A stretch of 64,000 bases of DNA from Erythrobacter sp. CCH5-A1 (lineage in GTDB: Bacteria > Pseudomonadota > Alphaproteobacteria > Sphingomonadales > Sphingomonadaceae): positions 26,506-90,505 of the forward strand of contig NZ_LSKQ01000203.1 of assembly GCF_001557115.1 (NCBI RefSeq), given 5' to 3'. Made by a program: the position numbers and the translations under genes. The notes beneath the pieces were generated by a model. That model was not told the origin of the DNA and searched no databases. It saw only the letters and a program-made list of their open reading frames with translations. Positions 27,710 to 59,263 of this stretch are shown here, in pieces (position 1 is the first letter of the stretch; each line of letters starts with the position of its first letter).

Positions 27710-27742
27710 GAGGCAGGTCCTCTCTGCATGGGTGGACAAGGT

Positions 27743-28561: not shown

Positions 28562-28589
28562 GACAAGCGTGATAATCCTGCCCGCGCAT

Positions 28590-28790: not shown

Positions 28791-28847
28791 GAAGGCTCCG
28801 TTTTGCTACCGCTGCATTGCAGCAATAACAAAAAGGGGCCCTCTCAC

Positions 28848-31634: not shown

Positions 31635-31646
31635 CCAGCTGGAAAC

Positions 31647-31681
31647 GCAAAAGGGGCAGGCGGTGCGCCTGCCCCTTTTGC
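31647..31681. terminator. Bidirectional intrinsic terminator
   Basis: Perfect 15-base-pair stem (31647-31661 with 31667-31681) and a five-base loop, GC-rich inside with A4/T4 tracts near the base on each side. It lies 12 bases after the TonB receptor stop and 13 before the convergent GNAT stop, so it can end both transcripts. Confidence 0.88.
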
Positions 31682-31694
31682 TTGCCTGCGCGCC

Positions 31695-32222
31695 TCAGCC
31701 CAGCAGGCTCTTGCGCATCGGGATCAGCGGTACATCGGCATAGCGCGCTTCGGGGCCGCTGGGCGTATAGCCGCAGCGCCGATAAAGCGGCTCGCCCGAA
31801 AGCGTGCTCATCAATTCGATATCGCGAAACCCTGCCGCGCGCGCGGCATCCTCGGCCGCGGATAGGATCGCCATGCCGACCCCGCGCCGCACGAAGCCGG
31901 GGTGGGTGTACATCGCCCGGATGCGCGCGGGTTCGGTCATGGGATCGAGCGGTTCGGGATCGATCAGGTCGCCCGCGCCGTCACCGCCGAAAAGCGTGCG
32001 CCGCCAGCTCCACCCGCCGCAGCCGGCGATCTCGCCTTCCAGCACGGCGCACAGATAGGTGCCATCGCGCAGCAGCTGGCTGTCGACCCCCATGAACTGC
32101 CGACTGGCCTCGATTTCCCGCGCCGAGAGGAAGCCGTGCTGCAGATCGGCAATGGCGCGCTCGACGATGGCCGCGATTGCCGGAAGATCGTCGTGGGTCG
32201 CGATGCGAACGGTCGCTTGCAT
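31695..32222 (-). CDS. GNAT family N-acetyltransferase
   Basis: Cytoplasmic acetyltransferase of 175 residues with a single GNAT domain. The acetyl-CoA pyrophosphate-binding motif is RRGVGMAILSAAEDAARAAG, preceded by the strand MYTHPGFV and followed by DIELMSTLSGEPLYRRCGY, the usual motif B. The start ATG at 32222 begins directly with the first strand (VRIATHDDLPAIAAI). It converges on the TonB receptor gene across a shared terminator and has no operon partner. The acceptor cannot be predicted; small-molecule acetylation is more likely than ribosomal-protein acetylation given the general YafP/ElaA-like form. Confidence 0.87.
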   Translation of the reverse strand: MQATVRIATHDDLPAIAAIVERAIADLQHGFLSAREIEASRQFMGVDSQLLRDGTYLCAVLEGEIAGCGGWSWRRTLFGGDGAGDLIDPEPLDPMTEPARIRAMYTHPGFVRRGVGMAILSAAEDAARAAGFRDIELMSTLSGEPLYRRCGYTPSGPEARYADVPLIPMRKSLLG

Positions 32223-32331
32223 GCCGTCAGTCTATGCGGCGGGCCATGCCAAGTCGAGGCCGGCGGCAAAGCAGGAATTTTCTGGCAGTTTCAGTCCGCC
32301 CTTCGACGGAGTAGAGCGCCGGCCTCCAAGT

Positions 32332-34674
32332 CTAGGCGTTCAGCTGGCGCTGGTAGCCTGCCCCGTCGCGCAGCAGCCCGGCCACTGCATCGGCCGCAAC
32401 CGGCCTCGAGAACAGGTATCCCTGGATGTTCTGGCACCCCTCGCGCTCCAGCACTTCGAACTGGGCCACGTCTTCCACCCCCTCCGCCAGCGTTTCCATC
32501 CCGAGCGCGGCGGCCAGTGTGGTGATCGCGCGGATCACTGCATGGCTATTGCCGCTGGTGCCCAGATCCTCGACGAAGCTCTTGTCGATCTTGACCTTGT
32601 CGAAGGGGAAGGAGCGCAGGTAGCTCAAGGAGGAATAGCCAGTCCCGAAATCGTCGAGCGCGATGCGCACGCCGAGATTGCGCAGCGAGTGCAGCGTCGC
32701 GAGCGTCTGGTCGACATCGGCGATGAAGATGCTCTCGGTGATCTCCAGCTCCAGCCGCCGGGCAGGCAACCCGCTTGCGGACAGGGCCGACAGGACGGTC
32801 GCCGCAATGCCGTTGGCGGCAAACTGCTTGGGCGAGACATTCACCGCGACCGAAACGTTGCTGGGCCATGTGCTGGCCTGATGGCAGGCTTCGCGCAGCA
32901 CCCATTCGCCGATCGGAATGATGAGACCGGTTTCCTCCGCCAGCGAGATGAACTCGACCGGGTTGACGCGCCCACGCACCGGGTGGTTCCAGCGGATCAG
33001 CGCCTCGAAACCGGTCAGGCGCTTTTCGGCGAGGCTGTAGAGCGGCTGGAAGTGCAGCTCGAACCCGCCCTCCTTGATCGCCGCGCGAAGATCGAGCTCG
33101 AGCTGGCGGCGCTGGCGGGCCGCTTCGTCGAGCCCCGGTTCGAAGAAGTGGTAGGTTGCCTTGCCCTCGTGCTTGGCGCGGTAAAGTGCAAGATCGGCAT
33201 TCTTCATCAGGGTGATGCCGTCCACCCCGTCGCCCGGGGCGACGGCGATGCCGATGCTCGCCCCGCAGGCGGCATGCTGGCCGTTCACGGTGATCGGGCG
33301 GTCGAAGCTGCGTTGCAGGCTGTCGGCGATCGTGCCGAGGTTCGCCTTCTCGTCGATGCCATCGATCAGGATCGCGAATTCGTCGCCGCCCAGCCGGCCG
33401 ATCAGCGCATCGGGCAGGTCCTCGCGCAGGTGATCGGCCACCATCCGCAGCAGGCTGTCGCCCGCCGGGTGACCGAGTGTGTCGTTGACCATCTTGAAAT
33501 CGTCGAGGTCGACATAGGCCACCAGCACCTGCTCGTTTGCGCGCCGGCGGGTCAGGGTATTGGCAAGCTGTTCGGTGAAGAGCTTGCGGTTGGGCAGTCC
33601 GGTCAGACCATCATGCAGGCCGACATGGATGATCTGCCGTTCGCGCTCCTCGATCGCGACGACCATCTGGTTGAAGCTTTCCGCCAGCCGTCCGATCTCG
33701 TCGTCTGTCTCGACCGCAAGGCTAACCTCGCGCCCCTCGCCGATCATGCGGGTCGCCTCATCGAGCTGCTGGAGCGGTTCGGTGACGGAGCGCGCGACCT
33801 TCCAGCTCATCCCCAGCGCCAGCGCAATCCCGCCGATGGCGAGCGCGACGAGCCACGCCTTGAGGCTGGCATAGGCGGCAAGCGACCGGTCCAGCTCGTG
33901 GCGCAGCACCAGGCGCGGCACGACGCCATCCTCGAGCACCGCCAGATCGGAGGTGTGGTAGAGGAAGCGCTCGCCTTCGACGTCGCGTTCGAACACGGTG
34001 CGGGACTTCGCTCCGCGCAGCCACCCGGGCTGGCGGCTCGCCTCGCCGACCTCGGCCTCGAGCGCGATCGGCGCAAGTTCCACCAACCGGTCAAGCTCGG
34101 CACGGTCAAGCGGCTGGGCGATCACCAGCCAGCCGATCAGATCGGGCGCCTCGATCGGGGCGGCGGCGGCAAGGGCAAGGCCCTGGCGCGAACGGATGAT
34201 GCCGTGCGTCTCGCCCGCATCGAGCCGGGTCCACAGGCTTTCAGGCGCAGGCACCGCCCCGGCGTCGGCGGCCAGCACCTCGCCATCGAGCGTGAGGACG
34301 AAGGCCGTATCGCTGCGTGCGCGCCCTTCGAGGCTGGCGAGCGCGCTGGCGATCGTCGGCAGATCCCCGGTCGCGACCGCCTCGTGGAAGCCGAAATCGC
34401 TGGCGAGGACACCGGCCTGATCGCCCATCTGCCCGGCGCGGGACGCGAGAATCTCGTCGAACACCCGGGCATTGGCTTCAAGATCGCGCGCCGCGCTCGC
34501 CTCACCGAAGCGCGCCAAGCCTTCCGCCGCGAGCGTGACGACCACCCCCAGCACCAGCGCGAACAGCCCGGCATAGAGCAGCGCGATGCGCGTGCGCAGC
34601 GATCGCAAGCGCACCGGGCGCAGCCGCGCCAGCGCGGCGAGCGCCGGCGCGCGCGCTGTCAGGGCGCGGCTCAT
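32332..34674 (-). CDS. Membrane-bound GGDEF-EAL cyclic-di-GMP protein with HAMP domain
   Basis: Protein of 780 residues. It has TM1 (about 29-51), a periplasmic sensor region of about 220 residues, TM2 (around 275-295), a HAMP segment (SVTEPLQQLDEATRMIGEGR), a GGDEF domain with intact GGDEF (about 427-431) and an EAL domain with EAL (near 555) plus DDFGTGYSSL. Both active-site signatures are intact, so synthesis and breakdown of cyclic di-GMP are both possible, tuned by the periplasmic sensor. The ATG at 34674 overlaps the stop of the cupredoxin-like gene (ATGA), so the sensor and an exported copper-protein candidate are co-made. The divergent DUF3034 and exported haemoglobin genes complete a conserved-looking neighbourhood. 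Confidence 0.93.
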   Translation of the reverse strand: MSRALTARAPALAALARLRPVRLRSLRTRIALLYAGLFALVLGVVVTLAAEGLARFGEASAARDLEANARVFDEILASRAGQMGDQAGVLASDFGFHEAVATGDLPTIASALASLEGRARSDTAFVLTLDGEVLAADAGAVPAPESLWTRLDAGETHGIIRSRQGLALAAAAPIEAPDLIGWLVIAQPLDRAELDRLVELAPIALEAEVGEASRQPGWLRGAKSRTVFERDVEGERFLYHTSDLAVLEDGVVPRLVLRHELDRSLAAYASLKAWLVALAIGGIALALGMSWKVARSVTEPLQQLDEATRMIGEGREVSLAVETDDEIGRLAESFNQMVVAIEERERQIIHVGLHDGLTGLPNRKLFTEQLANTLTRRRANEQVLVAYVDLDDFKMVNDTLGHPAGDSLLRMVADHLREDLPDALIGRLGGDEFAILIDGIDEKANLGTIADSLQRSFDRPITVNGQHAACGASIGIAVAPGDGVDGITLMKNADLALYRAKHEGKATYHFFEPGLDEAARQRRQLELDLRAAIKEGGFELHFQPLYSLAEKRLTGFEALIRWNHPVRGRVNPVEFISLAEETGLIIPIGEWVLREACHQASTWPSNVSVAVNVSPKQFAANGIAATVLSALSASGLPARRLELEITESIFIADVDQTLATLHSLRNLGVRIALDDFGTGYSSLSYLRSFPFDKVKIDKSFVEDLGTSGNSHAVIRAITTLAAALGMETLAEGVEDVAQFEVLEREGCQNIQGYLFSRPVAADAVAGLLRDGAGYQRQLNA

Positions 34675-35312
34675 CGCACGGCCACCTTCAGCTTGTGCGA
34701 CTGGCCCGCGCCGGTGACCTGGAGCGCCGAGCTGGTCTCGTTGCCGACCGCGCGCAGCATCGGATGCCACACGGTCACCCGCGCCCCGCCCGCGGGCACT
34801 CCGGTCAGAGTGACATAGCCGTTCTGGTCGGTCTTGCCGGCGAAGGGCGTGTCGGTGACGCGGATATAGCCGCGCATCTGGTCGTGGATGTTGCAGCCCA
34901 GTTTGACACTGCCGGTGATCGGAAATGTCTGGGTGCGGGTCTGATCGCGGCCGTAGAGTTCGATGGTGAAGCGCGCAGCCTTGGAGAAGCTGTAGATCGA
35001 ATGGCGCACCGTATCGAGATTCGGGAAGGCGACCGTGCTGCCCTTGGCGACGATCAGCGTACCGGGAACGAACTGCTGGTCCTTCTGTGCCATCCCCATC
35101 TTCCACGGGAAGCGGATCGGCCCCGCGCCGCCCTTGGCGCTATGCACTTCGACGACAGCGTCGCGCACCGGAACCCCGTCAGCGTCGACCACCTGCACGC
35201 GCAAGCTGGCAGGGGCGGCGGCTGCGGCGATGGCAGTGACCCCGCCGGTGGCCCAGATCACGGGCGCGGCGGCAAGGAACGCGGTGAGGAGACAGAGGAA
35301 GGCGGGGCGCAT
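34671..35312 (-). CDS. Exported cupredoxin-like protein (methylamine-utilisation-protein-like)
   Basis: Protein of 213 residues with an N-terminal signal sequence (hydrophobic 4-35) and a carboxypeptidase-regulatory-like first half (LRVQVVDADGVPVRDAVVEV). The second half has cupredoxin features: His104 in TVRHSIYSFS and the loop Cys140-x2-His143-x2-Met146, the type 1 copper ligand set. It resembles proteins annotated as methylamine utilisation proteins, although no mau genes are present. A blue-copper redox or copper-sensing role in the periplasm is inferred. It is coupled by ATGA to the GGDEF-EAL protein downstream and divergent from DUF3034, with 70 bases between the starts. Confidence 0.82.
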   Translation of the reverse strand: MRPAFLCLLTAFLAAAPVIWATGGVTAIAAAAAPASLRVQVVDADGVPVRDAVVEVHSAKGGAGPIRFPWKMGMAQKDQQFVPGTLIVAKGSTVAFPNLDTVRHSIYSFSKAARFTIELYGRDQTRTQTFPITGSVKLGCNIHDQMRGYIRVTDTPFAGKTDQNGYVTLTGVPAGGARVTVWHPMLRAVGNETSSALQVTGAGQSHKLKVAVR

Positions 35313-35382
35313 GACAGTTGTCTGCCAATAGGGATAATCTATTAAAAAACTGCCGCTGCATGGTTTAGGCAGGTTTTACGAA

Positions 35383-36438
35383 ATGGCGCTAACGACGGGC
35401 GTAATGATCCTCTCCGCCGCCAGTCTCATCGCAATCGCCAGCGCAGCTGCCCCGGTCTCGGCATCGCCGCCGTCCGCGCCGCCGCCTTACATCGCCCCGC
35501 TGTCCGTGATCGCTGCCGAAGCCCTGCTCGCGCAGGACGAGGACGGGGCAGCCAGCGGCAGCGATCCCGTGCCCGAGCCTGAGCCCGAGCCCGAAGCACC
35601 GCCAGCGCCGGACAAGCCGCCGCGCATCGCCGGGATGGATGTGTTTGCCGGCGGCAAGCTGGTGCTTACCAATGGCGTCACCACAGTCGATGGCGCCTCG
35701 GGCGGAGGCCTTGCGCGCTGGGCGACGATCGGCGGACGGCAGATGAGCGGCGGGATCGGTCTTTCCGCCCATGGCACCGCGATCGAGCTCAAGGATTACG
35801 GCTGGCGTTCCTACGGCGTGCTGCTGGGGATCGGCGACAGGATCGAGCTGAGCTATGCCCGCGCCGATTTCGATACCCGCGATGTGGGCGCGTTGCTGGG
35901 CATCGGGCAAGGCTATACCTTCAACCTCGACACCTTCGGCGCCAAGCTGCGCGTGGCGGGGGATCTCGTCTACGGCGATACATGGCTGCCGCAGATCGCG
36001 GTCGGCATCGAGCACAAGCGCAGCCGCGACGGAGCACTGGTCCGCGCGCTGGGGGCCGCCGACAGCGCGGGAACGGACTACACGCTTTCGGCAACCAAGC
36101 TGTTTCTCGCTCGCAGCCTGCTGGTCAACGCCACGCTGCGCTACACCGAAGCGAACGAGCTCGGGCTGCTGGGCTTCGGTTCGGCATCGGGCGAAAGCTA
36201 CAAGCTGCAATTCGAAGGCTCGCTCGGCTACCAGCTTTCGCGCCGTGCGGTGATCGGCGCGGAGTATCGCTCCAAGCCCGACAATCTCGGGCTCGGCGAT
36301 GACGACTGGATGGATGTGTTCGCCGCCTTTGCCGTGACCGATCATCTCACGCTGACCGCAGCCTATGTCGACCTCGGTTCGATCGCCACCATTCCCGATC
36401 AGCGCGGCGGATACCTGTCCGCGCAGGTCGCGTTCTGA
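35383..36438 (+). CDS. DUF3034 family outer membrane beta-barrel protein
   Basis: Protein of 351 residues: signal sequence, a proline/acid-rich linker (PEPEPEPEAPPAPDKPP, about residues 64-80) and a beta-barrel-like body matching DUF3034, with repeated amphipathic strands such as VLLGIGDRIELSYARADFDTRD and a final strand ending in Phe (GGYLSAQVAF). The GGKLVLTNGVTTVDGASGGGL start and QRGGYLSAQ end are typical of the family. Function is unknown. The gene is followed after 18 bases by an exported truncated haemoglobin and diverges from the cupredoxin/GGDEF-EAL operon, an arrangement that suggests one envelope redox or nitric-oxide response unit. Confidence 0.85.
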   Translation: MALTTGVMILSAASLIAIASAAAPVSASPPSAPPPYIAPLSVIAAEALLAQDEDGAASGSDPVPEPEPEPEAPPAPDKPPRIAGMDVFAGGKLVLTNGVTTVDGASGGGLARWATIGGRQMSGGIGLSAHGTAIELKDYGWRSYGVLLGIGDRIELSYARADFDTRDVGALLGIGQGYTFNLDTFGAKLRVAGDLVYGDTWLPQIAVGIEHKRSRDGALVRALGAADSAGTDYTLSATKLFLARSLLVNATLRYTEANELGLLGFGSASGESYKLQFEGSLGYQLSRRAVIGAEYRSKPDNLGLGDDDWMDVFAAFAVTDHLTLTAAYVDLGSIATIPDQRGGYLSAQVAF

Positions 36439-36456
36439 CCCCGGAGTTTTGCACCA

Positions 36457-36993
36457 ATGCCGATCCTCGCCGTCGCCTCTGCCGTTCTGATGCTGCTGCA
36501 ACAGGCCCCGGCAGAGGGCACCGATTGGGACGCCGAATTCGGGGTCGAAGTGAAGCAGCGCGATCCGGTCACGGGCGAGCTGCCGGTCGATCCATACCCC
36601 CGGTCGAATGCCAATGCCGGCGCTGTCCCCTACGACAGTGCCGGACTGGTCGCGGATTTCGGCGGGCGCGAGGGGATCGCCCGGATCGCGGTCCGCACGG
36701 TCGAACTGTCCGAGGCAGACCCGCGCATCGCCTCGATTTTCGCCAGCCATGATACGGTGCGGCTGAAGCGCACCCTCAGCGAGCAGTTCTGCTATCTGCT
36801 CGGCGCCGGGTGCGATTATTCGGGCCGCGACATGCAGGCCGCCCATGCCCAGATGGGCTTGACCAAGGCGGACATGAATGCCCTGGTCGAGAACCTGCAA
36901 GCCGCCATGCGTGAGGCCAACGTGCCCTTCGCAGCGCAGAATCGCCTGCTCGCCAAGCTCGCCCCGATGTCGCGCGATGTGGTGACGCGCTGA
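36457..36993 (+). CDS. Exported group 1 truncated haemoglobin
   Basis: Protein of 178 residues with a short hydrophobic leader (LAVASAVLMLLQQAPAEG) and about 40 extra residues before a truncated-globin domain (about 60-178). The proximal heme ligand is His130 in RDMQAAHAQMGLTKADM, with the family's helix pattern LKRTLSEQFCYLLGAGCDYSG before it and LVENLQAAMREANVP after it. Most truncated haemoglobins are cytoplasmic; this one appears periplasmic. Oxygen binding or nitric oxide dioxygenation is the family activity. It sits 18 bases after DUF3034, probably in the same transcript, across from the cupredoxin/cyclic-di-GMP operon. Confidence 0.85.
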   Translation: MPILAVASAVLMLLQQAPAEGTDWDAEFGVEVKQRDPVTGELPVDPYPRSNANAGAVPYDSAGLVADFGGREGIARIAVRTVELSEADPRIASIFASHDTVRLKRTLSEQFCYLLGAGCDYSGRDMQAAHAQMGLTKADMNALVENLQAAMREANVPFAAQNRLLAKLAPMSRDVVTR

Positions 36994-37208
36994 ACCTCGG
37001 CATGGTTGGCACGGCATAGGGCGACCCGCCTTTGTGAAAGCTTCACCTGCGGCGCGCTTCATTCCCGGTCAGCGCACGGATCGACTCCCGCTCGTCCGGC
37101 CGGGCCAAACGCTCGTTTCGTCACTTGAATTGAAGCTATCGTTTTGGTTACGCTGCCTTAAAGCATGCTGTCTAAATGCAGCAATATCGCCGGGGCATCG
37201 AGTGCTTG

Positions 37209-38393
37209 ATGATGAATGAAGACCATGCGCCAAGGTCGCTTGGGCCGCTTGCCTACCATGAAAGCGTAGTCGCGCATCTGCGGAGCGAAGAGCGGCACGC
37301 GTGGGAATGGTCATCGTCCGGAGCGCTCGCTCAGGAGGTCGGCGATATCCGTGACACCATGTTGCGCGATACCTATCGCCTCGAGCCATCCGGTCATCCG
37401 CTGGTGTTCGATGCGTGCCGCACCGCCATGTCGCGCTTGGGGATCGAGGCTCCGGTTACGCTCTATCAGGCCCATGATGGCACCATGAACGCGTCGCTCG
37501 TCTATGTGCCGGGCGAGATTCATCTCGTGTTCTTCGGCCCCATCCTGGAAAAGCTCGATCAGGCTGAAATGCTTGCGCTGATGGGGCACGAGTTGTCGCA
37601 TTACCTGCTATGGTCGATGGGCGAGGGCGAGCATTATCGCGCGAGCCGGGTGTTCGACCATGCACTGTCCTACCCCGATGCCAAGCCCTCGCATCGGGAG
37701 ACAGCGCGGCTGCTGAGCCTGCATACCGAACTCTTCGCCGATCGCGGCGCGGCAATCGCGGCAGGCGCGCCTGAACCGGCGGTGGCGGTGCTGGTCAAGG
37801 CCATGACCGGGCTGACCAGTGTCGATCCTGCGGCATACCTGCGCCAGGCACAGGAGGTGGAAGCCGCCGGCGCCAGGTCGCAGGGTTTTTCCCATCCGGA
37901 GGCGTACCTGCGCGCGCGTGCGGTGCAATTGTGGTGGACGGGTGATCCCGATCTTCCGCAGTGGCTGGACAAGCACTTGCGCGGACCGCTTTCGATCGAA
38001 GCGCTGGACCTTCCGGGGCAGAGCAGGCTGACGCAGATGACACGTGCCTTTCTGGCCCGCTTCATGATGGAGGTGGAAGAAAGCAGCGACGAGATCGCCA
38101 CCCAGTTGCGCGCGTTCTTTCCGGATTTCGGGCGGCAGGAAGAGGTTCCACTGGACCTCACCGAAATCGGGGCGGAACGGATCGACGATGCAACGCGCGA
38201 TTACTTCATCGCGCTGATGTTCGACCTCGCCATGGCCGATGCCGATGCCATCGACACGACCATGCTCGCCGCCGCGAAGATCGCAGCCGAAATCGGCGCG
38301 ACAGAGCGGCTGGTCGCGGCGCTTCGGCGCGATCTCAAATGGACCAAGGCGCGCAGTGACAAGCTGGTCGCTCAGGCGGCAAAAGCAGCGTGA
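37209..38393 (+). CDS. M48-like zinc metallopeptidase, first gene of putative defence operon
   Basis: Cytoplasmic protein of 394 residues without signal or membrane segments. The zinc motif HELSH is at 127-131 and the third ligand region ELFAD (Glu174, Asp178) follows the M48 pattern ExxxD. The region before it (LGIEAPVTLYQAHDGTMNASLVYVPGEIHLVF) matches the M48 N-terminal strands. The C-terminal 180 residues are helical and not recognisable. The start is ATG at 37209 (or 37212); 37176 is a longer option. Its stop overlaps the GTG start of the giant helicase gene (GTGA), so the proteins are made together. Most M48 enzymes are membrane-bound; a soluble one beside a helicase suggests regulated cleavage of a partner, which is inference. 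Confidence 0.82.
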   Translation: MMNEDHAPRSLGPLAYHESVVAHLRSEERHAWEWSSSGALAQEVGDIRDTMLRDTYRLEPSGHPLVFDACRTAMSRLGIEAPVTLYQAHDGTMNASLVYVPGEIHLVFFGPILEKLDQAEMLALMGHELSHYLLWSMGEGEHYRASRVFDHALSYPDAKPSHRETARLLSLHTELFADRGAAIAAGAPEPAVAVLVKAMTGLTSVDPAAYLRQAQEVEAAGARSQGFSHPEAYLRARAVQLWWTGDPDLPQWLDKHLRGPLSIEALDLPGQSRLTQMTRAFLARFMMEVEESSDEIATQLRAFFPDFGRQEEVPLDLTEIGAERIDDATRDYFIALMFDLAMADADAIDTTMLAAAKIAAEIGATERLVAALRRDLKWTKARSDKLVAQAAKAA

Positions 38394-41300
38394 GCATGGA
38401 CATCAGAGCAAACCCCACGCGCCTGCTGCGTGCCGTCCTTTCGGATGGCAAGCCTTTGCCTCCCGACGATCTGGTGCACGCCGTTCTCGGGCTGATGCGG
38501 CAGGTTGCCGACCTTCATGCCCATGGCAAGGTAGCGCAGATCGGGCTCGACACCGTGGTGGAACTGGAGGACGGCCAACTGGCGCTTGCCGATCCTGCAG
38601 GGATTGCGCCGCGCGCCAACCTCTACGCCATCCACGCGGTGCAGCCCCAGGTCTCCAGCGCATTGAAGCTGGTCGGCAATTACCGCGTCACGCAGGATGA
38701 GGACCGCGGGACCAAGGTTGACGATCTGTCGGTGCTCGACGGTGACGAGATCGAACTCAAAAGCCCGGTCTACATCACCCGGCTGCGCACCTGGGAAACG
38801 GAGCTGGGCCACCACGACGAAATCACCGATGTGTTCCAGCTGGGCATGGTCATGGCTTCGCTTGCCTGCGGTCTCGATCCGGCCGAATTCGATGACGTCG
38901 AGCGCTTTTCCCTCAATCGCCAGAACCTGTTCGCCATCGCGCCGCGCCTGCATCCGGTCATCGCTTCGATCATCCTCGAAGCGACCGAGCTCAACCGCCA
39001 TGAACGCGCGACCGATGTGGCCGAACTCGCGCGGCGGCTGGATACGTGGCGCGATCAGCCGACGGGCATCGAAGTCGAGCGCGTTCTCGCCGAGGCGCAG
39101 GGCGTTCCCGGTCGCCGTGCGGCGGTGCTGGCGCATCTTCGCGACCGGCTGTTCGACCTCTCCCGCCGCAACCGGCTGATCCACTTTCGTGCCACGCAAA
39201 GCTCGATCAACTACACCGAGGCGAGCATCCCGATCGTGATGCGCATCGAGAGTGTGCGTGCCGACGATCTGTGTACCTGGAAGGGCCAGTTCGCCAAGGA
39301 TGTGCTGAGCGGCAAGGCCGTGCCGCTCAATCGCTGGCTGCGGTTCGAGGACCAGCCGCAGATCCCTTCGCAGCTTGATCGCATCATTCAGGAAAATCGC
39401 CGGAACCGGAACGAGTACGGCTTTTCCAGCCTCAGGCTGACCGTCGCGTTCCTGCATTGGCACAACCTGAAGGAAGCACCCGACGAGCGCATCAGTTCGC
39501 CCTTGCTGTGGCTGCCGGTGGAGGTCTCCCGCCGCAAGGGCGTGCGCGACCGTTATGTCATGACTTGCGTGGACTCGGTGGCGGAATTCAATCCGGCCCT
39601 GCGGCACATGCTGCGCCAGCTCTACGATATCGAACTGCCCGAAACGGTCGACCTCGCGGAAACCCCGATCGAGGCGATCCATGAAGCCATCCGCACGCAG
39701 ATCCACGAAAGCGAACCGGGCGTGCGGCTGGAGTTGCAGGAACGCCCCGCGATCCGGCTGATCCTCCAGCGCGCGGTGGCACGCGTCAACAAGTTCAATC
39801 GCCGCCGACCGGGCAAGAAAGAGACGATCAGCGCCAAGGCCGATTTCAACTATGCGCGCGACGATTATCGCCCGTTGGGCCTCGTCCTGTTCGAGAAATT
39901 CGTCAAGCCCGATCCCTTGCCGCAGCGCATCGCAACCGGCGGCGGATACACGCCCAAGCGCGAGTTCATGGTCGCCGAAACGGAGAGCTTGGCCTATGGC
40001 AAGGCCAGCGGCGAAGGCCACAAATTCGTATGGGAGATCGACCTGACGGGCGTCACTCTTGCCAATTTCAACTACAAGAAGATGTCGCTGGTACGCGATT
40101 ACAATGCGCTGATCGACAAGCCGGAAACGCAACCTGCCTTCGATCAGGTGTTCTCGATCGAGCCGCGGCCATTCGTGGAAGGGGCACCGCCTCCAATCCC
40201 GCCGGAAGAACAGTGGGGCGTCGTTCCAAGTGACGCGACGCAGGAGCAGGCGGTGGCTTTCGCGCGCACCGGGCGCAGCTACATCATTCAGGGACCGCCC
40301 GGTACGGGCAAGTCGCAGACGATCACCAATCTGATCGCGGATTATGCCGGACAGGGCAAGCGGGTGCTGTTCGTGTGCGAGAAACGCGCCGCTCTGGACG
40401 TTGTCTACCACCGGCTGGGCCAGGCCGGTCTCGATGGACTGGCAACGATCATCCACGATGCGCAGGACGACAAGAAGGACTTCATCGCCGACCTGCGCGA
40501 TCATTACGAGCGCTGGGGCCGCACGTCGGACGGGCTCGAGGATGCACGCGCTGCCCGTGCGCAGACTGTCGCTGCGCTCAAGGAGCATCTGCAGCAGATC
40601 AGCGCATTCGAAGCGGCTGTCGGCAATGCGGGGAGCGATGGCGAACTTGCCTTGCGCGACCTTGTGCGCCGCGCCGCAGCCTTGCCGCCTGTCGTCGGCG
40701 GGATCGGTGCCGCCGCGCGCGAGACCCTGCCCGGCATCGCGCTGTGGGATGCGAACCGTCAGATGGCGAGCCGGGTGTTCCGGGCGTTCAAGGAAATCGT
40801 CGGTGCGTCCGACCTCGCCTCCCATCCCTTCGCGCGGCTGCGCGGCGAGGTGATCCGGCAGGATCGCCCCTATGCGGCGGTGGAAGCGGCAATTGCGTCT
40901 GCCGAGGGGCTTATCCAGCGGCTCGACGAACTGCTCGAAGATCCGGCGATCCCGCTATCGGGAGACACCGCGCTTGCCGAAGCTTGCGCAGTGGCCGAAC
41001 TTGCCGCGAAGATGGTAGCCACCGGCCTCGCCAATTCTCCGGGGCTGCTCGATCCGCTGTCATCGCAATCGCAGGCATTGCAGCGCGACATGGCAGCGCT
41101 CGCCAAGCTCGAGGCCGCCGAAACGACTGCCGCACAGAACGCTGCCGGATGGAGCGATCCGCTGGGTCCGGCAGACACCGCCGCCGCGCTGGAACTGGCG
41201 CGAGCGAAGGAAGGCTCGCTCTTCGCCATCTTCAGCGGTGCCTGGAGAGCGCTCAAGTCCACAGTCGCGGCGCGCTATGACTTTGCTTCCCATGCGGTGA

Positions 41301-43873
41301 AACCGAAAATCACCGCGGTGCTGGGTTCGCTCGCGGCATTGCACGAAGCCCGCGCCGATCTGGCGAGCGAGACAGCGGCTATCGAACAGCGGCTGGGCAC
41401 AGGCGATCTGCGTGCCCTGCTCGACCTGCGCGGCACTCTCGTCGGCGGCACGCATTCCGACCCGGTCGGCAAGCTGCTGGCCCTCGCTTCCTCGGGCGTC
41501 GGTCATCAGGCCCTCGCTCGTATTGCACTGCAGGCGCCAACCTTGCGCGGCTTAAGCGAGACGCTGGCGGCGAGCCTGGACGAGCCGGGCCAGCTCACAA
41601 TCGAAACGGTCGGCGAATTGCTGCGCGACCTGCGCGAAAATCTGGACGATCTGCCCGATCTGCTGCCGCATCTGTCCGAAGTCCACGCCGCCCCGCCCGC
41701 TGTCACCGCTGCGCTCACGCGCCTTGCGTTGCCGCTTGCGGGAATAGAGGCGCTGGTGGTGGACGAAGCGATCGCACGGCGCGAGCGCGCCAATCCCGAC
41801 ATCCGCCGGTTCGACATCGATCGCATGATCGTCGTCTCGCGCCGCGCCGCCGCTGCGCGGGAGCTTCTGCGCGATCAGAATTCGGCAGCCATCCGCGCAA
41901 CCCTGCACCGCCAGTTTCGCGACAATGTGAAGATCTCCGAAACCTCGGTCACCCAACTCGACAATGCCGGGCGGGAATTCAAGAAAACCTACGCCACCGG
42001 ACGGCGCGAGCTCGAGCACGAATTCGGCAAGACGATGCGCTACAAGTCGATCCGCGAACTCGCCAGTGGCGACAGCGGGCGGGTGGTCAATGATCTCAAG
42101 CCTGTCTGGCTTATGAGCCCACTGTCAGTTTCCGACACGCTCCCGCTCGAACCCGAACTGTTCGACGTGGTCATTTTCGACGAAGCCAGCCAGGTTCCGA
42201 CCGAGGATGCGGTTCCGGCGCTCTGCCGCTCACGTCAGGTCGTGATCGTCGGCGACGAGATGCAGCTTCCGCCGACCAGCTTTTTCGCGACCGCGCAATC
42301 GGACGAGGATATGGAAGTGCTGGCCGAGGAGGATGGCGAGCGCATCGCCATCGTGCTCGATGCCGACAGCCTGCTTAGTCAGGCCGCGCGCAACCTGCCG
42401 GCAACCTTGCTGGCGTGGCATTACCGCAGCCGTTTCGAGGCGCTGATCAGCTTCTCCAATGCCGCCTTCTATGCGGGCGAATTGGTGACGATACCCGACA
42501 GGTCGCTGCGGACCCGGCACGGCGCCGATGGACCAGTGTCCTCTGACGACGATGCAGCATGGTCTGCGGGAGTCGATCGCCTGCTTGCCGCACCCATTAC
42601 CGCCCATCGCATGGCGGACGGTGTCTACGAGCGCCGCGCCAACCTGCCGGAAGCGCGCTACATCGCCGGCCTGGTGCGCGAGCTGCTCCGGCGCGAGACC
42701 GGGCAAACCATCGGTATCGTCGCCTTTTCCGAAGCGCAGCAGTCCGAGATCGAGGATGCGCTCGAACGCCTCGCCGCAGAGGATGCAGCCTTTTCCGCAG
42801 CGCTGACCCGCGAAGTCGAACGCGAGGATGACGGCCAATTCACCGGGCTCTTCGTCAAGAACCTGGAGAATGTACAGGGCGATGAACGCGACATCATCCT
42901 GATGAGCGTGTGCTATGCTCCTGGGCCTGACGGGCGGATGGCGATGAATTTCGGCCCGATCAACCAGCGGGGCGGGGAAAAGCGGCTCAACGTCATCTTC
43001 AGCCGCGCCAAGCGGCACATGGCCATCGTCTCCACCATCGCTCCCGAAGCGATCACCAACATCCACAATGACGGTGCACGCGCATTGCGCAGCTTCCTCG
43101 CCTTTGCCGAAGCGCAGTCGGCCGGGGCGCACGACAATGCCCAGGCGGTGCTCGCAACGCTCAACCCCGATGCCGCGCGCACCTTCGATGCGCAGTTGCC
43201 GCCCGATCCTGTCCGCAGTGCAATCGCCGCTGCGCTGCGGGCGAAGGGGCATGAGGTTCACGAGCACGTCGGCGGGGCAAGCTTCCGCTGCGACCTTGCC
43301 ATCGTCGATCCGGCTGGCAGCGGATATGCGCTGGGCGTCCTGCTCGACCGCAGCAGCACCGACACGGCGGCGATCGAGGAACGGTTCGTTTTCAGGCCCG
43401 GCATCTTGCGCGCCTTCGGCTGGCGCGTGATCGATGTGCCGGTCACCAGCTGGCTGCGATCACGCGAACAGGTGGTCGAGCGGATCGAGGCCGAATTGCA
43501 GCGATCCAGCTGGGATCTTGCAGATGGGGATCCGATGGCAGGTACCAGTCTGCCGCCGCTGGACGCCGGAAAGGAGCCGGGCGCACCCATCCTGGAGCCG
43601 GAGGGCAATCCTCTCGCCGCACCCGAAGCCTCGGCTCACGAGACAGCTACGTCTGCGCCCGACGGCATGACCGAGTACCGGCTCGTCGCGGGTTCCTCGA
43701 ACAAGTTCTGGCGCGTGGGCGTGGTCGGATGCGACCTGATCGTCGAATTCGGACGCGTGGGCACCAAGGGTCAGCGCGTGGTCAAGAGCTATGAGGATGC
43801 CGACCGCGCGCAGCGCGAAGCGAACAAGCTGACGCTGGAGAAGACGCGCAAGGGTTACGAGGAATTCAGCTGA
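38390..43873 (+). CDS. Pseudokinase-DUF4011-SF1 helicase-MTES_1575-WGR fusion protein
   Basis: Giant 1827-residue protein. (1) Residues ~25-222 look like a protein-kinase C-lobe (LHAHGKVAQIGLDTVVEL, ALADP, DVFQLGMVMASL) with no N-lobe; the HRD motif is lost (Ala49-Gln-Ile), so it is probably inactive. (2) DUF4011 from about 250 (RDRLFDLSRRNRLIHF, 251-266). (3) Superfamily 1 helicase of the COG1112 type: Walker A GPPGTGKS 635-642, coiled-coil-rich insert about 680-1230, Walker B DEASQ 1264-1268, GDEMQLPP, and NVQGDERDIILMS. (4) MTES_1575 nuclease-like fold about 1606-1705, with Asp1635 but Leu1651 where the family has Glu. (5) WGR domain about 1762-1827 (EFGRVGTKGQ). GTG start overlaps the peptidase stop; ATG at 38396 is an alternative. 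Related helicase-kinase proteins act in anti-phage Mokosh systems, so defence is the leading inference. Confidence 0.9.
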   Translation: MSMDIRANPTRLLRAVLSDGKPLPPDDLVHAVLGLMRQVADLHAHGKVAQIGLDTVVELEDGQLALADPAGIAPRANLYAIHAVQPQVSSALKLVGNYRVTQDEDRGTKVDDLSVLDGDEIELKSPVYITRLRTWETELGHHDEITDVFQLGMVMASLACGLDPAEFDDVERFSLNRQNLFAIAPRLHPVIASIILEATELNRHERATDVAELARRLDTWRDQPTGIEVERVLAEAQGVPGRRAAVLAHLRDRLFDLSRRNRLIHFRATQSSINYTEASIPIVMRIESVRADDLCTWKGQFAKDVLSGKAVPLNRWLRFEDQPQIPSQLDRIIQENRRNRNEYGFSSLRLTVAFLHWHNLKEAPDERISSPLLWLPVEVSRRKGVRDRYVMTCVDSVAEFNPALRHMLRQLYDIELPETVDLAETPIEAIHEAIRTQIHESEPGVRLELQERPAIRLILQRAVARVNKFNRRRPGKKETISAKADFNYARDDYRPLGLVLFEKFVKPDPLPQRIATGGGYTPKREFMVAETESLAYGKASGEGHKFVWEIDLTGVTLANFNYKKMSLVRDYNALIDKPETQPAFDQVFSIEPRPFVEGAPPPIPPEEQWGVVPSDATQEQAVAFARTGRSYIIQGPPGTGKSQTITNLIADYAGQGKRVLFVCEKRAALDVVYHRLGQAGLDGLATIIHDAQDDKKDFIADLRDHYERWGRTSDGLEDARAARAQTVAALKEHLQQISAFEAAVGNAGSDGELALRDLVRRAAALPPVVGGIGAAARETLPGIALWDANRQMASRVFRAFKEIVGASDLASHPFARLRGEVIRQDRPYAAVEAAIASAEGLIQRLDELLEDPAIPLSGDTALAEACAVAELAAKMVATGLANSPGLLDPLSSQSQALQRDMAALAKLEAAETTAAQNAAGWSDPLGPADTAAALELARAKEGSLFAIFSGAWRALKSTVAARYDFASHAVKPKITAVLGSLAALHEARADLASETAAIEQRLGTGDLRALLDLRGTLVGGTHSDPVGKLLALASSGVGHQALARIALQAPTLRGLSETLAASLDEPGQLTIETVGELLRDLRENLDDLPDLLPHLSEVHAAPPAVTAALTRLALPLAGIEALVVDEAIARRERANPDIRRFDIDRMIVVSRRAAAARELLRDQNSAAIRATLHRQFRDNVKISETSVTQLDNAGREFKKTYATGRRELEHEFGKTMRYKSIRELASGDSGRVVNDLKPVWLMSPLSVSDTLPLEPELFDVVIFDEASQVPTEDAVPALCRSRQVVIVGDEMQLPPTSFFATAQSDEDMEVLAEEDGERIAIVLDADSLLSQAARNLPATLLAWHYRSRFEALISFSNAAFYAGELVTIPDRSLRTRHGADGPVSSDDDAAWSAGVDRLLAAPITAHRMADGVYERRANLPEARYIAGLVRELLRRETGQTIGIVAFSEAQQSEIEDALERLAAEDAAFSAALTREVEREDDGQFTGLFVKNLENVQGDERDIILMSVCYAPGPDGRMAMNFGPINQRGGEKRLNVIFSRAKRHMAIVSTIAPEAITNIHNDGARALRSFLAFAEAQSAGAHDNAQAVLATLNPDAARTFDAQLPPDPVRSAIAAALRAKGHEVHEHVGGASFRCDLAIVDPAGSGYALGVLLDRSSTDTAAIEERFVFRPGILRAFGWRVIDVPVTSWLRSREQVVERIEAELQRSSWDLADGDPMAGTSLPPLDAGKEPGAPILEPEGNPLAAPEASAHETATSAPDGMTEYRLVAGSSNKFWRVGVVGCDLIVEFGRVGTKGQRVVKSYEDADRAQREANKLTLEKTRKGYEEFS

Positions 43874-43897
43874 GGCTGACGGGCCGGCGGGAAAACC

Positions 43898-44329
43898 ATG
43901 ACACCTGAACTCATCAAACTGGGCCTGCTGATGTTGGCCATGACACCCCTGCTGGTGGCGAACCTGCGCAGCGGCAACGTGCCGAACGGGCTTGTCGGCC
44001 TGCTGCTGGCTTGCGGCATTGCCGTCGCGGTGCTCGGGCCATCCTTCGGTGCCGCACCTTTTGTCACGAGCAGCCTCGTATGGTGGGCCGCGGGGTCGGT
44101 GCTGCTGCTCGCCGCTGCCATATTCCGCGCGGTTTCAGGCGGCGTTGCGAAGTTCCTGATCGCCCTCATTCCGTGGTACGGCGTGGAACAATATCTGATC
44201 GTCGTGACGCTGGGAATGTTGCTCGCTGCGGCAATCGGCAAGTTCGCAGGATCGGGCCGGGCGCTTGTCGTCCCCCCTGTCATGTCTGCAGCGCTGGGCG
44301 TCGGGATCTGGAGCGCGATTGCCAGTTGA
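43898..44329 (+). CDS. Small membrane protein resembling an A24 prepilin peptidase without catalytic aspartates
   Basis: Protein of 143 residues with four to five hydrophobic segments. The stretch LLVANLRSGNVPNGLVGLLL aligns by eye with the first A24/CpaA motif (A-x-x-D-L-R-x-x-x-I-P-N), but Asn22 stands in for the catalytic Asp. The second motif, normally GxGDxK, reads SGGVAKFLIALIPWYG, with Val83 at the Asp position. Both acids are therefore missing and it cannot be a normal prepilin peptidase; no pilin genes are nearby. It starts 24 bases after the helicase stop with CGGGAA before the ATG, so it is probably the third gene of that operon. A membrane anchor or effector role is possible. The A24 resemblance is by eye only. 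Confidence 0.7.
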   Translation: MTPELIKLGLLMLAMTPLLVANLRSGNVPNGLVGLLLACGIAVAVLGPSFGAAPFVTSSLVWWAAGSVLLLAAAIFRAVSGGVAKFLIALIPWYGVEQYLIVVTLGMLLAAAIGKFAGSGRALVVPPVMSAALGVGIWSAIAS

Positions 44330-44335
44330 TCCCGA

Positions 44336-46126
44336 TCAATCCGGCGTATCGAGATGGGCCAGCAGGGGCATCCTGATGGTCTGGTGTTCGACAACCCTGG
44401 ACAGGCGCAGCACCGCCGGATCGATGTCCTTCCCGCCCATGTCGATCAAGGTCGCGATCGCGGCATTGGCGATGATCTTCGACCGCATGCCATCGTCGCC
44501 CGTCCAGGTGTAGGTCGCAGCGCTTTGCGCGGTGCGTTCGAGCGCCTCGATTGCGCGCGCACGGTTCGGCATCAGCGCCACCAGCCACAGGGCACCGCGC
44601 AGGAATTCCTCGTTCTCCACGCTGAGGCGCATCCATGTGGCGAGGGTAGCGTACGAGGCGCCCTTGTAAGCCGGCGCGAGCATGTGCAGCACGCCGGTCG
44701 TGGCGCTCCTGTTCTTGTAGGTGTGATCATCCAGCCGGATCAATTGGGCATGGAAATCGAAACAGATGTCCTGGGAGGCGCCGCTGGCAATCGCCATGGC
44801 CACGGCCCGGCCAAGCGCCCGAGTTTCCGACGCATGGCGCGCCGGCCAGTCGGGATGCGCGGTTTCGAGCCGATCGATCGCGGCAGAAAAGCGCTCGCCA
44901 TTGCAGACGTTGGTATAGGCCTCCCTTCCCAGCATTGGCGTATGGAACAGGGCCAGCCAGTCGTGCAGGCGTGTCTCGACCAATTCGATGCCGATCGGAT
45001 CGCACAGAGCGAGCGCTTCCTTCTGCCACGCCCTTGTGGCCTTGGTGGCGCGCCGCTGGGTGATCATGTGCTCGACCAGGGCGGTCCAGTCCGGATTTTC
45101 CAGATCCGCAAGAACCTCGAGCCCGGGAATCTGATCGCTTTGCCAGTTGTAGCGCGAGTGCGCCTGTGCTGCCGCGATGGTCGAGGGCAGGCGGCGATAG
45201 GCTTCGGGATCCGCCCACCCGTTACGTTTGCCATTGTGTTGCACCAGCGCCGCAACCGGCTGGTTGCTGGCCTTCCAGGCGTCGAAGCTCGGGCAAACGT
45301 CACCGCAGACCGGCCAGGCATTGGCGAAGGCTGCGGCGGTGCGGGACCAGTCGGGCTTTGACGATCCCTTGGTGGCCAGCCGGATTTCGTTGAGCGCGAG
45401 AGTGACCTCTGCCAGCAAGTCTGCCCAGAATTGCGCATTGGGCCGTGGCTTGTCGACGATGGCGAACGGATTTTCAGCACCTTCGCAGCGTTGCATCAGG
45501 AATTCGGTGGCACTGACTTCCACGCCGGCCAGCTTTTCCAGCCTTTCGGCGCGGGCGATCATCTTCTTGGTGTCCGCCTTGCGATACGATTTTTGCGCAC
45601 TGCGGATGGCGGCAGCCATTTGCGCCAATTCCTCGCAATCCTTACTTGAAAGGTATGCTCCCTGCCGGATCGTGCTGTCGATCAATCGTAGCAATGCCTT
45701 GAACTCAGATTCGAAATAATTCCTTTCCCTCAGGGACTTGTTGCCGGTCAGCAGGGCCAGCAGAGCGCCAAGGTGCTCTGGCCGAACCATGATTTCGGTC
45801 TGCCAGATCGCGTTCAAAGTATAATACGCGACCATTTCCTGCTGGGGCTTTTCGCGCATGTACCCATCATGGATGCCGGGCCGGAAGGCCAGATCGGCAA
45901 GCAAATCGCCGCGCTCCTCGGGCGAGAGAAAATCGAGGGCCTGGCGGCAACCGGAGGCCGGGTAAGGGGAGTTGCGCGCCAACAGCGTCGCTTGTTCGAG
46001 ATGGCGATCGAAGGGTGCGTTTCCACCGGTCGGCGCACCGCGATCGAACAAGCGCGAACCTGGCTGCGCATCGGGCTGCGCATTTCCCGAATCCTTGCGG
46101 CCGAAAACCTTTCGGCCAAACTTCAT
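44336..46126 (-). CDS. Hypothetical helical protein, convergent with the helicase operon
   Basis: I do not recognise this 596-residue protein. It has no signal peptide or membrane segment. After a basic, disordered-looking N-terminus (FGRKVFGRKDSG) it appears almost entirely helical: a long charged stretch around 140-215, Trp-rich middle segments, and a C-terminal part with the look of HEAT-like repeats (LRGALWLVALMPNRARAIEAL, IIANAAIATLIDMGG) resembling parts of DUF4132/WGR-type proteins. ATG at 46126 is used; TTG at 46141 and GTG at 46135 are alternatives. It converges on the A24-like gene with six bases between stops and lies between the helicase operon and tRNA-Ser. A role as partner or regulator of that operon is only contextual. 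Confidence 0.7.
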   Translation of the reverse strand: MKFGRKVFGRKDSGNAQPDAQPGSRLFDRGAPTGGNAPFDRHLEQATLLARNSPYPASGCRQALDFLSPEERGDLLADLAFRPGIHDGYMREKPQQEMVAYYTLNAIWQTEIMVRPEHLGALLALLTGNKSLRERNYFESEFKALLRLIDSTIRQGAYLSSKDCEELAQMAAAIRSAQKSYRKADTKKMIARAERLEKLAGVEVSATEFLMQRCEGAENPFAIVDKPRPNAQFWADLLAEVTLALNEIRLATKGSSKPDWSRTAAAFANAWPVCGDVCPSFDAWKASNQPVAALVQHNGKRNGWADPEAYRRLPSTIAAAQAHSRYNWQSDQIPGLEVLADLENPDWTALVEHMITQRRATKATRAWQKEALALCDPIGIELVETRLHDWLALFHTPMLGREAYTNVCNGERFSAAIDRLETAHPDWPARHASETRALGRAVAMAIASGASQDICFDFHAQLIRLDDHTYKNRSATTGVLHMLAPAYKGASYATLATWMRLSVENEEFLRGALWLVALMPNRARAIEALERTAQSAATYTWTGDDGMRSKIIANAAIATLIDMGGKDIDPAVLRLSRVVEHQTIRMPLLAHLDTPD

Positions 46127-46322
46127 GAAGCTCACGGCCAATCACCCAAAAACGCAGCAGACCAATGGCAGGGAGATCTATTCACCTATGGTTTACAAGC
46201 GATAAATACCTGAAAAGACTTCCCGACAGGTCTTGGCGAAATCCGCCATGACCGGCGCCAGCTTACCACCGCGCGCCGGGGCAAACCATCCGGCGACACC
46301 TCGGCAAGCAATCGGCAAGCCC

Positions 46323-46367
46323 GTGCCCGGGCACGAGCGGATCGGGGCGCCCGGTCCCGATCGGGAC
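46323..46367. repeat. Two perfect palindromes 3' of tRNA-Ser
   Basis: GTGCCCGGGCAC (46323-46334) and GTCCCGATCGGGAC (46354-46367) are each perfectly self-complementary. They lie 27-71 bases beyond the 3' end of the tRNA and before the hypothetical gene. They may be a tRNA terminator, a recombination or regulatory site, or both; no T-tract follows either one. Confidence 0.45.
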
Positions 46368-46393
46368 AAATATCTCGAATTTTCAGCGGCTTT

Positions 46394-46484
46394 TGGCGGA
46401 GCAGGAGGGATTCGAACCCTCGATACGGTTTTGCCGTATACACACTTTCCAGGCGTGCGCCTTCGACCACTCGGCCACTGCTCC
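46394..46484 (-). tRNA. tRNA-Ser (anticodon GGA)
   Basis: Class II tRNA of 91 bases including an encoded CCA. The acceptor arm pairs GGAGCAG (46484-46478) with CTGCTCC, the discriminator is G, and the T-arm has GGTTCGAATCC. The anticodon loop CTGGAAA gives anticodon GGA (46450-46448). The long variable arm ATACGG...CCGTAT is the serine hallmark. Its 3' end faces the 37.2-46.1 kb block, the usual orientation for an island integration site, but I found no copy of the tRNA 3' end at the far side. Confidence 0.96.
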
Positions 46485-46597: not shown

Positions 46598-47656
46598 ATG
46601 AGAACCCTGCTTCTGGCGGCTTCGGCTGCGCTCGCCCTGACCGTGCCGCTCGCTGCCGAGGAGGCCGCCAAGCCCGCCTACCCGGCCCCGTCCGAAATCG
46701 TCGCCGCCGCGCCCGCGAGCGACTGGGTGGCGATTGCGCCCGAAGACCTCTTGGTGATGACCCTCGCCCCCGACGCCGAGGGCCGCCCGCGCACCGTGGT
46801 GATCCAGCTGATGCCCGCCCCCTTCTCGCAAGGGTGGATCCACAACATCCGCCTCTTCGCCCGCGCCAAGTGGTACGACAATATCTCGGTCAACCGGGTG
46901 CAGGACAACTACGTCACCCAGTGGGGCGATCCCAATTACGACAATCCCGAAGCGACGGGGAAGCCCAAGCCCCTGCCCGAGGGACTGAAGGTGATGGGGG
47001 AGGCGGAGTATACGGCCGCGTCCTTCGTTCCTGCGGGGGCGGCGGATCGTGGCATAAGGCAAGGCGCGGCTACGGTCACGGGGCTGGTGACTGCCGGGGT
47101 CGATGTCGAAGCTCTCGCCGCCTTGCCGGAACCGGAGCAGAGCCAGAAGGCGCGCGCAGCGCTGGCTGACCGTTATTCGGCGTTCTCGGCCTTCACGCAG
47201 GGCTGGCCATTTGCTGGCGAGGACGAGAGGTTCTGGCCCACCCACTGCTACGGCATGGTCGGCGTCGGGCGGAATTATTCGCCCGACACCGGATCGGGCG
47301 CGGAGCTATATGCCGTGATCGGCCATGCGCCCCGGCACCTCGATCGCAATATCGCGCTGGTCGGCCGGGTAATCGAGGGGATGGAGCACCTCTCCTCGCT
47401 CCCGCGCGGAAAGGGCGATCTGGGGTTCTACACCGCCGAGGAAGCAGCCAAGCGCACCCCGATCCTGACCGTCAGGGTGGCGAGCGACCTGCCCTCTTCC
47501 GAGCAACCGAAGTTCGAATTTCTCTCAACCGACAGCGCAGCCTTCATCCGCTATGCCGAGGCCATCGCCAACCGCCGCGATCCGTTCTTCATCGTCCCCG
47601 CCGGCGGCGCGGACATCTGCAACATCAAGGTGCCAGTGCGGCGGGTCGCTTCTTAA
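46598..47656 (+). CDS. Exported cyclophilin-type peptidyl-prolyl cis-trans isomerase
   Basis: Protein of 352 residues with signal peptide MRTLLLAASAALALTVPLAA. The N-terminal half has the cyclophilin core: HNIRLFARAKWYDNISVNRVQDNYVTQWGDP corresponds to the usual FxRVIxxFMxQGGDP block, with Gln/Trp in place of standard active-site residues, and GMVGVGRNYSPDTGSGAELYAVIGHAPRHLDRNIALVGRVIEGME matches the rest. The family is split by an insertion of about 90 residues, as in many alphaproteobacterial periplasmic forms. Periplasmic protein folding is the expected role. The ATG at 46598 begins the signal peptide; the ribosome site is weak. It is flanked by copies of a short repeat. Confidence 0.85.
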   Translation: MRTLLLAASAALALTVPLAAEEAAKPAYPAPSEIVAAAPASDWVAIAPEDLLVMTLAPDAEGRPRTVVIQLMPAPFSQGWIHNIRLFARAKWYDNISVNRVQDNYVTQWGDPNYDNPEATGKPKPLPEGLKVMGEAEYTAASFVPAGAADRGIRQGAATVTGLVTAGVDVEALAALPEPEQSQKARAALADRYSAFSAFTQGWPFAGEDERFWPTHCYGMVGVGRNYSPDTGSGAELYAVIGHAPRHLDRNIALVGRVIEGMEHLSSLPRGKGDLGFYTAEEAAKRTPILTVRVASDLPSSEQPKFEFLSTDSAAFIRYAEAIANRRDPFFIVPAGGADICNIKVPVRRVAS

Positions 47657-59253: not shown

Positions 59254-59263
59254 CGCTGCCGCA

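Follow-up and report, generated by a model that had tools for sequence, protein, structure and literature searches.

In the window analysed here, a stretch of 64,000 nucleotides from Erythrobacter sp. CCH5-A1 (RefSeq assembly GCF_001557115.1, contig NZ_LSKQ01000203.1, positions 26,506 to 90,505 of the forward strand), two overlapping genes encode a soluble M48-type zinc metallopeptidase and a giant superfamily 1 (SF1) helicase. The peptidase gene P0001 occupies 37209..38393 on the + strand (394 aa; Pfam Peptidase_M48), and the giant gene P0002 follows at 38390..43873 (+, 1827 aa), its GTG start overlapping the P0001 stop codon as GTGA. The giant protein consists of a kinase C-lobe-like domain, DUF4011, the SF1 helicase, an MTES_1575 domain and a WGR domain. 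P0003 (43898..44329, +), which begins 24 bases 3′ of the giant gene, encodes an A24-like membrane protein with six hydrophobic stretches, and P0004 (44336..46141, −; exact start uncertain), convergent to the giant gene, encodes an all-helical protein of 601 aa. An initial annotation of this DNA had described the genes, the overlap and the 24-base spacing in the same way, and the gene calls agree with it. The helicase–protease pair is accessory and occurs in four phyla, which is a larger finding than that annotation contained.

For P0001, the start at 37209 is favoured over one at 37176, most of the 120 listed peptidase homologues being 393–397 aa long. Upstream of it lies a promoter-like block (37148..37175, +) with −35- and −10-like parts and CTTAA between them, which occurs once in the window. 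By eye, the block can also be discerned ahead of the M48 gene of several close relatives that have other flanks; it is not visible in locus L007. The nine upstream regions aligned have a mean column identity of 43%. We infer that it may serve as the promoter of the unit.

GTDB species, represented by a single genome each, were scanned for relatives of the giant protein; 103 were confirmed, and the best 80, corresponding to 78 loci, were kept. An M48 match lies just upstream of the giant gene in 75 of these 78 fetched loci, and the arrangement is therefore far beyond chance. Two loci (L018 and L065) are not assessable, as their contigs end inside the giant gene, so that the peptidase and helicase genes recur together, a point that the initial annotation had named for checking, in 75 of 76 assessable cases; the sole exception is L061, from a planctomycete bin, where no M48 match was found at E≤10. 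A start codon is present at the 4-base overlap in 63 of 76 loci, the window counted, and the largest gap between the two genes is 0.75 kb (L075). Furthermore, the pairwise distances of the P0001 and P0002 homologues correlate with r 0.977 over 73 loci, and hence there is no sign of partner exchange. Carriers of the pair belong to four phyla, namely Pseudomonadota, Verrucomicrobiota, Planctomycetota and Lentisphaerota. In L061 (830-7553), a gene that reads by eye as GNAT-like precedes the giant gene.

The pair is rare and accessory rather than present in nearly all relatives. In a sample of 298 genomes from the family of the Erythrobacter G002 (the Sphingomonadaceae of GTDB), four have P0001, two further matches of about 20 bits being left out; in a genus sample around a Variovorax it was found in 17 of 81 genomes, one of the 17 being a fragment. 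This occurrence rules out a core housekeeping gene. The M48 gene and DnaE share one contig in 16 of the 17 Variovorax-sample carriers, and in all 16 the M48 gene lies on the DnaE 3′ side at a distance that fits a giant gene between them (the giant gene itself was read in the Variovorax loci of the species scan and in L106, and elsewhere its position was fitted by distance). By eye, the flanks at this site are ExbD- and TolA-like genes, sometimes followed by a PBP-like and a small gene, and then DnaE. Of 19 non-carriers fetched from this site, 18 have the same flanking genes, lack both genes of the pair and show gaps of about 1.2 kb at most; the remaining one, L102, has a different context. The cassette at this site consists of two genes only, and the empty sites bear out the expectation that the locus varies between close relatives. 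Between distant loci the flanks mostly differ, and they are common to close relatives such as the Leaf-type Sphingomonas. In a quick tree of the giant protein, built with no bootstrap, Burkholderia L063 falls inside a Sphingomonas branch, and Brevundimonas L013 stands beside the Erythrobacteraceae, a Sphingomonadales branch. It should be noted that bins in this tree may be contaminated and that L006 (Rhizobium) is suspect.

All Pfam domains called in P0002 (DUF4011, AAA_11, AAA_12, MTES_1575 and WGR) are above their cut-offs. DUF4011 lies at 39146..39613 (+, aa 253-408) with 55.3 bits against a cut-off of 22.2. The helicase motif I region (40232..40504, +, aa 615-705) carries QGPPGTGKS, with AAA_11 starting at 615, and the motif is identical in 77 of 77 rows of the giant-protein alignment. 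Motifs II–VI (42155..43036, +, aa 1256-1549) read FDEASQ, GDEMQLPPT, QGDER and RLNVIFSRA, AAA_12 covers aa 1327-1548, and nearly each motif residue is kept in 76–77 of the 77 rows. The helicase part matches SMUBP-2, UPF1 and SEN1. With intact motifs and DUF4011 above its cut-off, P0002 belongs to the DUF4011/SF1 helicases.

The N-terminal and C-terminal parts of the giant protein are different in kind. At E≤1, a profile of 49 N-termini matched 31 PDB chains, among them 30 protein kinases (AMPK, 9.5e-4), while Pfam Pkinase gave E 0.041 at best, in 5 of the 49 members, and no match in the window protein. Protein kinases are recognised by an N-lobe and by HRD and DFG residues; the P0002 domain (38462..39109, +, aa about 25-240) has neither an N-lobe nor recognisable HRD/DFG catalytic residues, and it resembles a kinase C-lobe only. 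The label "pseudokinase" given to it earlier therefore captures a real kinase similarity but overstates its extent, and P0002 is not a member of the protein kinases. A similar qualification applies to "nuclease". The MTES_1575 nuclease-like domain (43220..43498, +, aa 1611-1703) is above its cut-off (49.3 bits against 38.2) but degenerate: compared with VECDG..YH in a P. aeruginosa plasmid relative, P0002 lacks the complete D..E-x-D-G..H motif. The acidic residue of E-x-D-G is replaced by leucine (L1651 in 74 of 77 rows), and the G and H following the second D are not conserved, although D1635 and D1653 are kept in 75 of 77. One of the two plasmid relatives compared also lacks the Glu of E-x-D-G. 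The WGR domain (43685..43864, +, aa 1766-1825; 56.5 bits) is optional in the family, its motif being present in 55 of the 77 rows.

P0001 belongs to the M48 peptidases, with 24.4 bits to Pfam Peptidase_M48 against a cut-off of 20.3. Its zinc site (HELSH at 127-131, E174 and D178) is invariant in a 60-row alignment, and the AlphaFold2 model has a pLDDT of 92.3. Fold comparison (Foldseek/VIA) points to BepA, Ste24 and HtpX, with no PDB match below E 0.001 in Foldseek. Unlike these three, P0001 has no transmembrane-like stretch, carries an extra helical C-terminal part of unassigned fold (residues 268-394), and is genetically tied to a helicase. A TerB-like C-terminus was considered and dropped, as it has no Pfam support and the fold search covers mostly residues 19-256. 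In 11 carrier genomes searched whole, there is a single P0001 match in each. A second, short M48-family reading frame lies upstream of the intact pair in L069 (217-729). The alignments thus show conservation at the motifs of the helicase and at the active site of the protease, and the kinase-like and nuclease-like parts are without recognisable catalytic residues.

The best NCBIfam and PADLOC matches of P0002 are the anti-phage DUF4011 models ProA, PDC-S37 and Hhe, although no NCBIfam cut-off is reached; PADLOC prints none. ProA (NF058533) has an SF1 helicase and a C-terminal region like those of P0002 and scores 687.6 bits (best stretch aa 548-1705), but its curated cut-off of 1500 is far away, and P0002 is no member. 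By comparison with ProA, P0002 has a kinase C-lobe N-terminus, an eroded nuclease motif, a WGR domain and, in nearly all relatives, an M48 partner. The PADLOC candidate PDC-S37 gives 660 bits over aa 547-1714 (profile 217-1349 of 1550); its naming implies a single-gene candidate, whereas the helicase–M48 family is a gene pair. Hhe (NF042953/PDLC02194), described as a DUF4011 anti-phage protein, gives 441 bits in NCBIfam and 300 in PADLOC, and with a cut-off of 2000 P0002 lies outside it as well. The likeness to Mokosh is mainly in the SF1 helicase core (MkoA 130 bits, best stretch aa 1256-1549; MkoC 73 bits). Membership of Mokosh calls for a full-length MkoA/MkoC match and a partner gene, and no Mokosh profile falls on the partner genes here; P0001, P0003 and P0004 have no PADLOC match at E≤0.1. 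A literature search, judged by title, returned no paper describing a helicase–M48 unit and none on ProA. DUF4011 by itself appears in three papers, one of which places a DUF4011 gene in the core of every P. aeruginosa isolate, flanking a defence hotspot (PMC10250203). A works-like comparison is Hachiman (HamAB), in which a helicase sensor gates an enzyme (PMC12278908); its helicase belongs to a different system, and what it gates is a nuclease. The helicase–M48 pair stands outside ProA, Hhe and Mokosh, yet its mode of action is most likely that of a helicase which senses nucleic acid and thereby licenses an effector, in this case a protease.

P0004, for which no Pfam family was found at E≤1, is convergent to the giant gene in 12 loci besides the window. 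Within the 298-genome sample it is present in the same four genomes as P0001 and adjoins it there, the only other matches being a remote one of 34 bits (G211) and one of 19 bits; the chance of this coincidence is about 3e-9, if the genomes are independent. The initial annotation took the convergent gene as a bound of the module, a view that the co-occurrence overturns: by its distribution, P0004 is a third part of the unit, linked to the pair, within the Sphingomonadales/Erythrobacteraceae branch. It is an add-on, because 3 of 11 carriers of the window's branch, searched whole, are without it. Its model is all-helical (pLDDT 83.5), with no PDB match under E 0.001 in a fold search. The remote relative in G211 (BLASTP E 1e-14, 21%) overlaps a DUF4132/DUF7737 gene (L127:8129-11384). 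WGR-DUF4132 (MolR-like) proteins share a WGR domain with the unit, and P0004 resembles the helical protein beside a DUF4132 gene; nevertheless, the similarity is only 21%, and no DUF4132 match was found in P0004 or among the families matched by 32 P0004 members. In Deinococcus, DUF4132 and WGR proteins are reported among the genes upregulated on DdrO depletion, and the role of WGR/DUF4132 proteins in bacterial DNA-damage responses is called undiscovered (PMC8533742). The pair offers a handle on such proteins.

We propose that the locus is a self-contained, horizontally moving chromosomal module of two genes, three in the window's branch, and that its helicase-gated proteolysis is directed against nucleic acid that is damaged or foreign; we give this reading somewhat less than an even chance. 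The M48 protease is the likely executor, because the helicase and protease sites are conserved while the kinase-like and nuclease-like parts are degenerate. P0002 would act as sensor and motor, engaging aberrant or foreign nucleic acid with the aid of its WGR domain and, in the window's branch, of P0004. ATP-driven movement of the helicase would then load or unlock the protease, which would cut proteins on or near the engaged nucleic acid. Its most likely use would be to guard the genome against invaders such as phage or other foreign DNA, proteolysis taking the place of the customary nuclease step; defence would be the likeliest role and nucleoprotein repair its main rival. More tentatively still, the pair may be a prokaryotic helicase-coupled metalloprotease that removes or destroys proteins bound to nucleic acid, in which the kinase and nuclease parts are non-catalytic scaffolds, M48 is the only executor and P0004 is a helical adaptor in one branch. 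If so, proteolysis guided by nucleic acid in this manner would form a new class, used for anti-phage immunity or for the clearance of DNA–protein crosslinks. Among named families, the anti-phage DUF4011 helicases, which carry nuclease-like parts, come closest; in the present family, erosion of the nuclease motif extends over four phyla and a protease is tied in. If the protease is the executor, the sensing of nucleic acid would be coupled straight to proteolysis.

Several results weigh against this proposal. The interaction and the activity of the pair are predictions, the nuclease domain might use other residues, WGR is missing in 22 of 77 rows (in at least L070 because the contig ends), and the scores of P0002 are far below the ProA and Hhe cut-offs. 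All 16 assessable Variovorax carriers have the unit at one site, which resembles an accessory trait passed on by descent more than a defence gene that roams. The phyla are nearly separate in the giant-protein tree and the Pseudomonadota form one group; therefore, movement between phyla is old or rare. No P0001 relative was found in 72,556 plasmids or 50,697 phages, and no relative of P0001 or P0002 was confirmed on viral contigs, where the P0002 query could reveal close relatives and no others. Partial matches to P0002 are present in 413 plasmid records, each at <60% identity and none spanning more than 80% of its length. Those scans thus found no plasmid, phage or viral carriage of the unit. 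Finally, a PADLOC scan at E≤1e-15, run with no matched positive control on 321 of the 324 neighbours chosen (a maximum of four genes to either side, at least 80 aa, up to 60 loci, near-duplicates removed), found no recurrent defence partner, each family having one member in each scan batch, and the enrichment near defence genes that had been named for checking is not seen. What holds of the earlier proposal of a membrane-linked, protease-regulated nucleic-acid defence system is that the pair recurs, varies and has anti-phage-like profiles; the membrane link and the defence-gene enrichment are not supported.

In the nucleoprotein repair explanation, the helicase and protease would clear proteins stuck on DNA, such as crosslinks and stalled complexes, as a bacterial counterpart of SPRTN acting together with a helicase. 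We regard it as unlikely, though not negligible: the patchiness of 4 in 298 genomes is unusual for a repair system, the best profiles are those of defence proteins, and no LexA-type box was found upstream in 75 loci with either of two consensus patterns (0/75 for both GTTC-N7-GTTC and CTGT-N8-ACAG; controls 2/567 and 0/567). Looser or reversed forms occur in 1/75 each, against 4/567 and 1/567 in the control, and SOS control of the unit was accordingly set aside. The same anatomy would also suit regulated proteolysis, in which helicase sensing switches the protease onto one dedicated target, e.g. a repressor, as in an IrrE/PprI-like stress response. The promoter-like block before the unit in relatives with different flanks is consistent with this, but no regulator gene recurs beside the pair across different contexts, and movement between distant hosts would need a conserved target; we consider such a switch improbable.

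Slightly less probable again is an ordinary DUF4011 nuclease–helicase defence in which the nuclease cuts via D1635/D1653 and the protease is a regulator. The profile closeness to ProA/Hhe/PDC-S37 and the retention of the two Asp residues argue for it, and the Glu missing from one plasmid relative means that its loss may be tolerated; against these stand the leucine at the acidic position, the loss of the G and H, and the VECDG..YH of the other plasmid relative. Far less probable than any of these, and largely refuted as a requirement, is a three-gene membrane-linked system that includes the A24-like protein, as initially annotated. In its favour, the A24-like gene follows the giant gene closely, and P0003 is found in the same place in two of the 78 fetched loci (L002 and L004). 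However, no P0003 match was detected at the other 76 at E≤1e-4, and L028 has none despite flanks in common with L002; in a third genome (G003), a 35% match lies away from the locus. P0003 scores 19 bits against Peptidase_A24, below the cut-off of 26.5, and is no member of that family. Both catalytic Asp positions of the A24 motif are lost in the window, L002 and L004. The A24-like gene is thus ruled out as a component, the proposed membrane link falls with it, and P0003 is an optional passenger.

Beyond P0004 lies a tRNA-Ser(GGA) gene (46394..46484, −), on the 3′ side of which synteny with relatives stops, and then a cyclophilin-type peptidyl-prolyl isomerase (PPIase) gene (46598..47656, +; Pfam), a conserved flank matched in 254 of the 298 family genomes. 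As a control for synteny, 14 of the best PPIase matches were fetched and 6.7–10 kb read on the tRNA 3′ side. The tRNA adjoins the PPIase gene in 14/14, and the gene order on the PPIase side is kept, with SpoT and HemF-like genes in 14/14 and more genes in most. On the tRNA 3′ side of these relatives, no window gene of 27,000-46,200 was found except for TonB-receptor matches of 31–35% identity in L116 and L117. The genes there are mostly unique to each genome (by our own gene caller; thin in L110, L116, L117 and L119), and G350, whose SpoT is 96% identical to that of the window, lacks P0001 and carries different genes there. Because the 3′ side differs and the PPIase side is kept, in 14/14 each, variable DNA begins sharply at the tRNA, with the unit lying past the synteny break, and ordinary synteny decay is ruled out. 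Across the family, this tRNA-Ser(GGA) site may act as a hotspot for integration. An integrated element bounded by a tRNA-derived direct repeat was also considered; there is no second copy of the tRNA 3′ end in the window.

Among the neighbours scanned with PADLOC, matches were obtained to type I, II and IIG methyltransferase models, LmuA, Avs1a and subtilase, RTasMBL, CARF-ADA, mad2, mad3 and pVip, and further to DpdF/BrxHI, SngC, RtcR-type, ShosA, PDC-M37B/DolB (a ClpB-like gene in L030), PsyrA, QatD and Csa3. We judge several of these to be housekeeping cross-matches; mad3 alone recurs, in two scan batches. A 74-protein comparison set from the tRNA-Ser site contains type I restriction genes and DrmC.

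Open reading frames on the tRNA-Ser(GGA) 3′ side in L110 (G349) read by eye as VirB4/9/10/11-like conjugation genes, and L113 has homologues of the window genes 53402-59797 on that side, a rearrangement. In Sphingomonas L014, L015 and L016, at about 8030-8850, a tRNA-Ser (GCT) lies 0.5–0.7 kb upstream of the M48 gene. Upstream of the unit, the window (28848-36993) holds TonB receptor, GNAT, HAMP-GGDEF-EAL, DUF3034 and bacterial globin genes, with DUF3034 matches present in 30 of the 298 family genomes. The G+C content is 0.61–0.66 at 37000-46000, a mild dip from 0.66–0.71 at 34000-37000.

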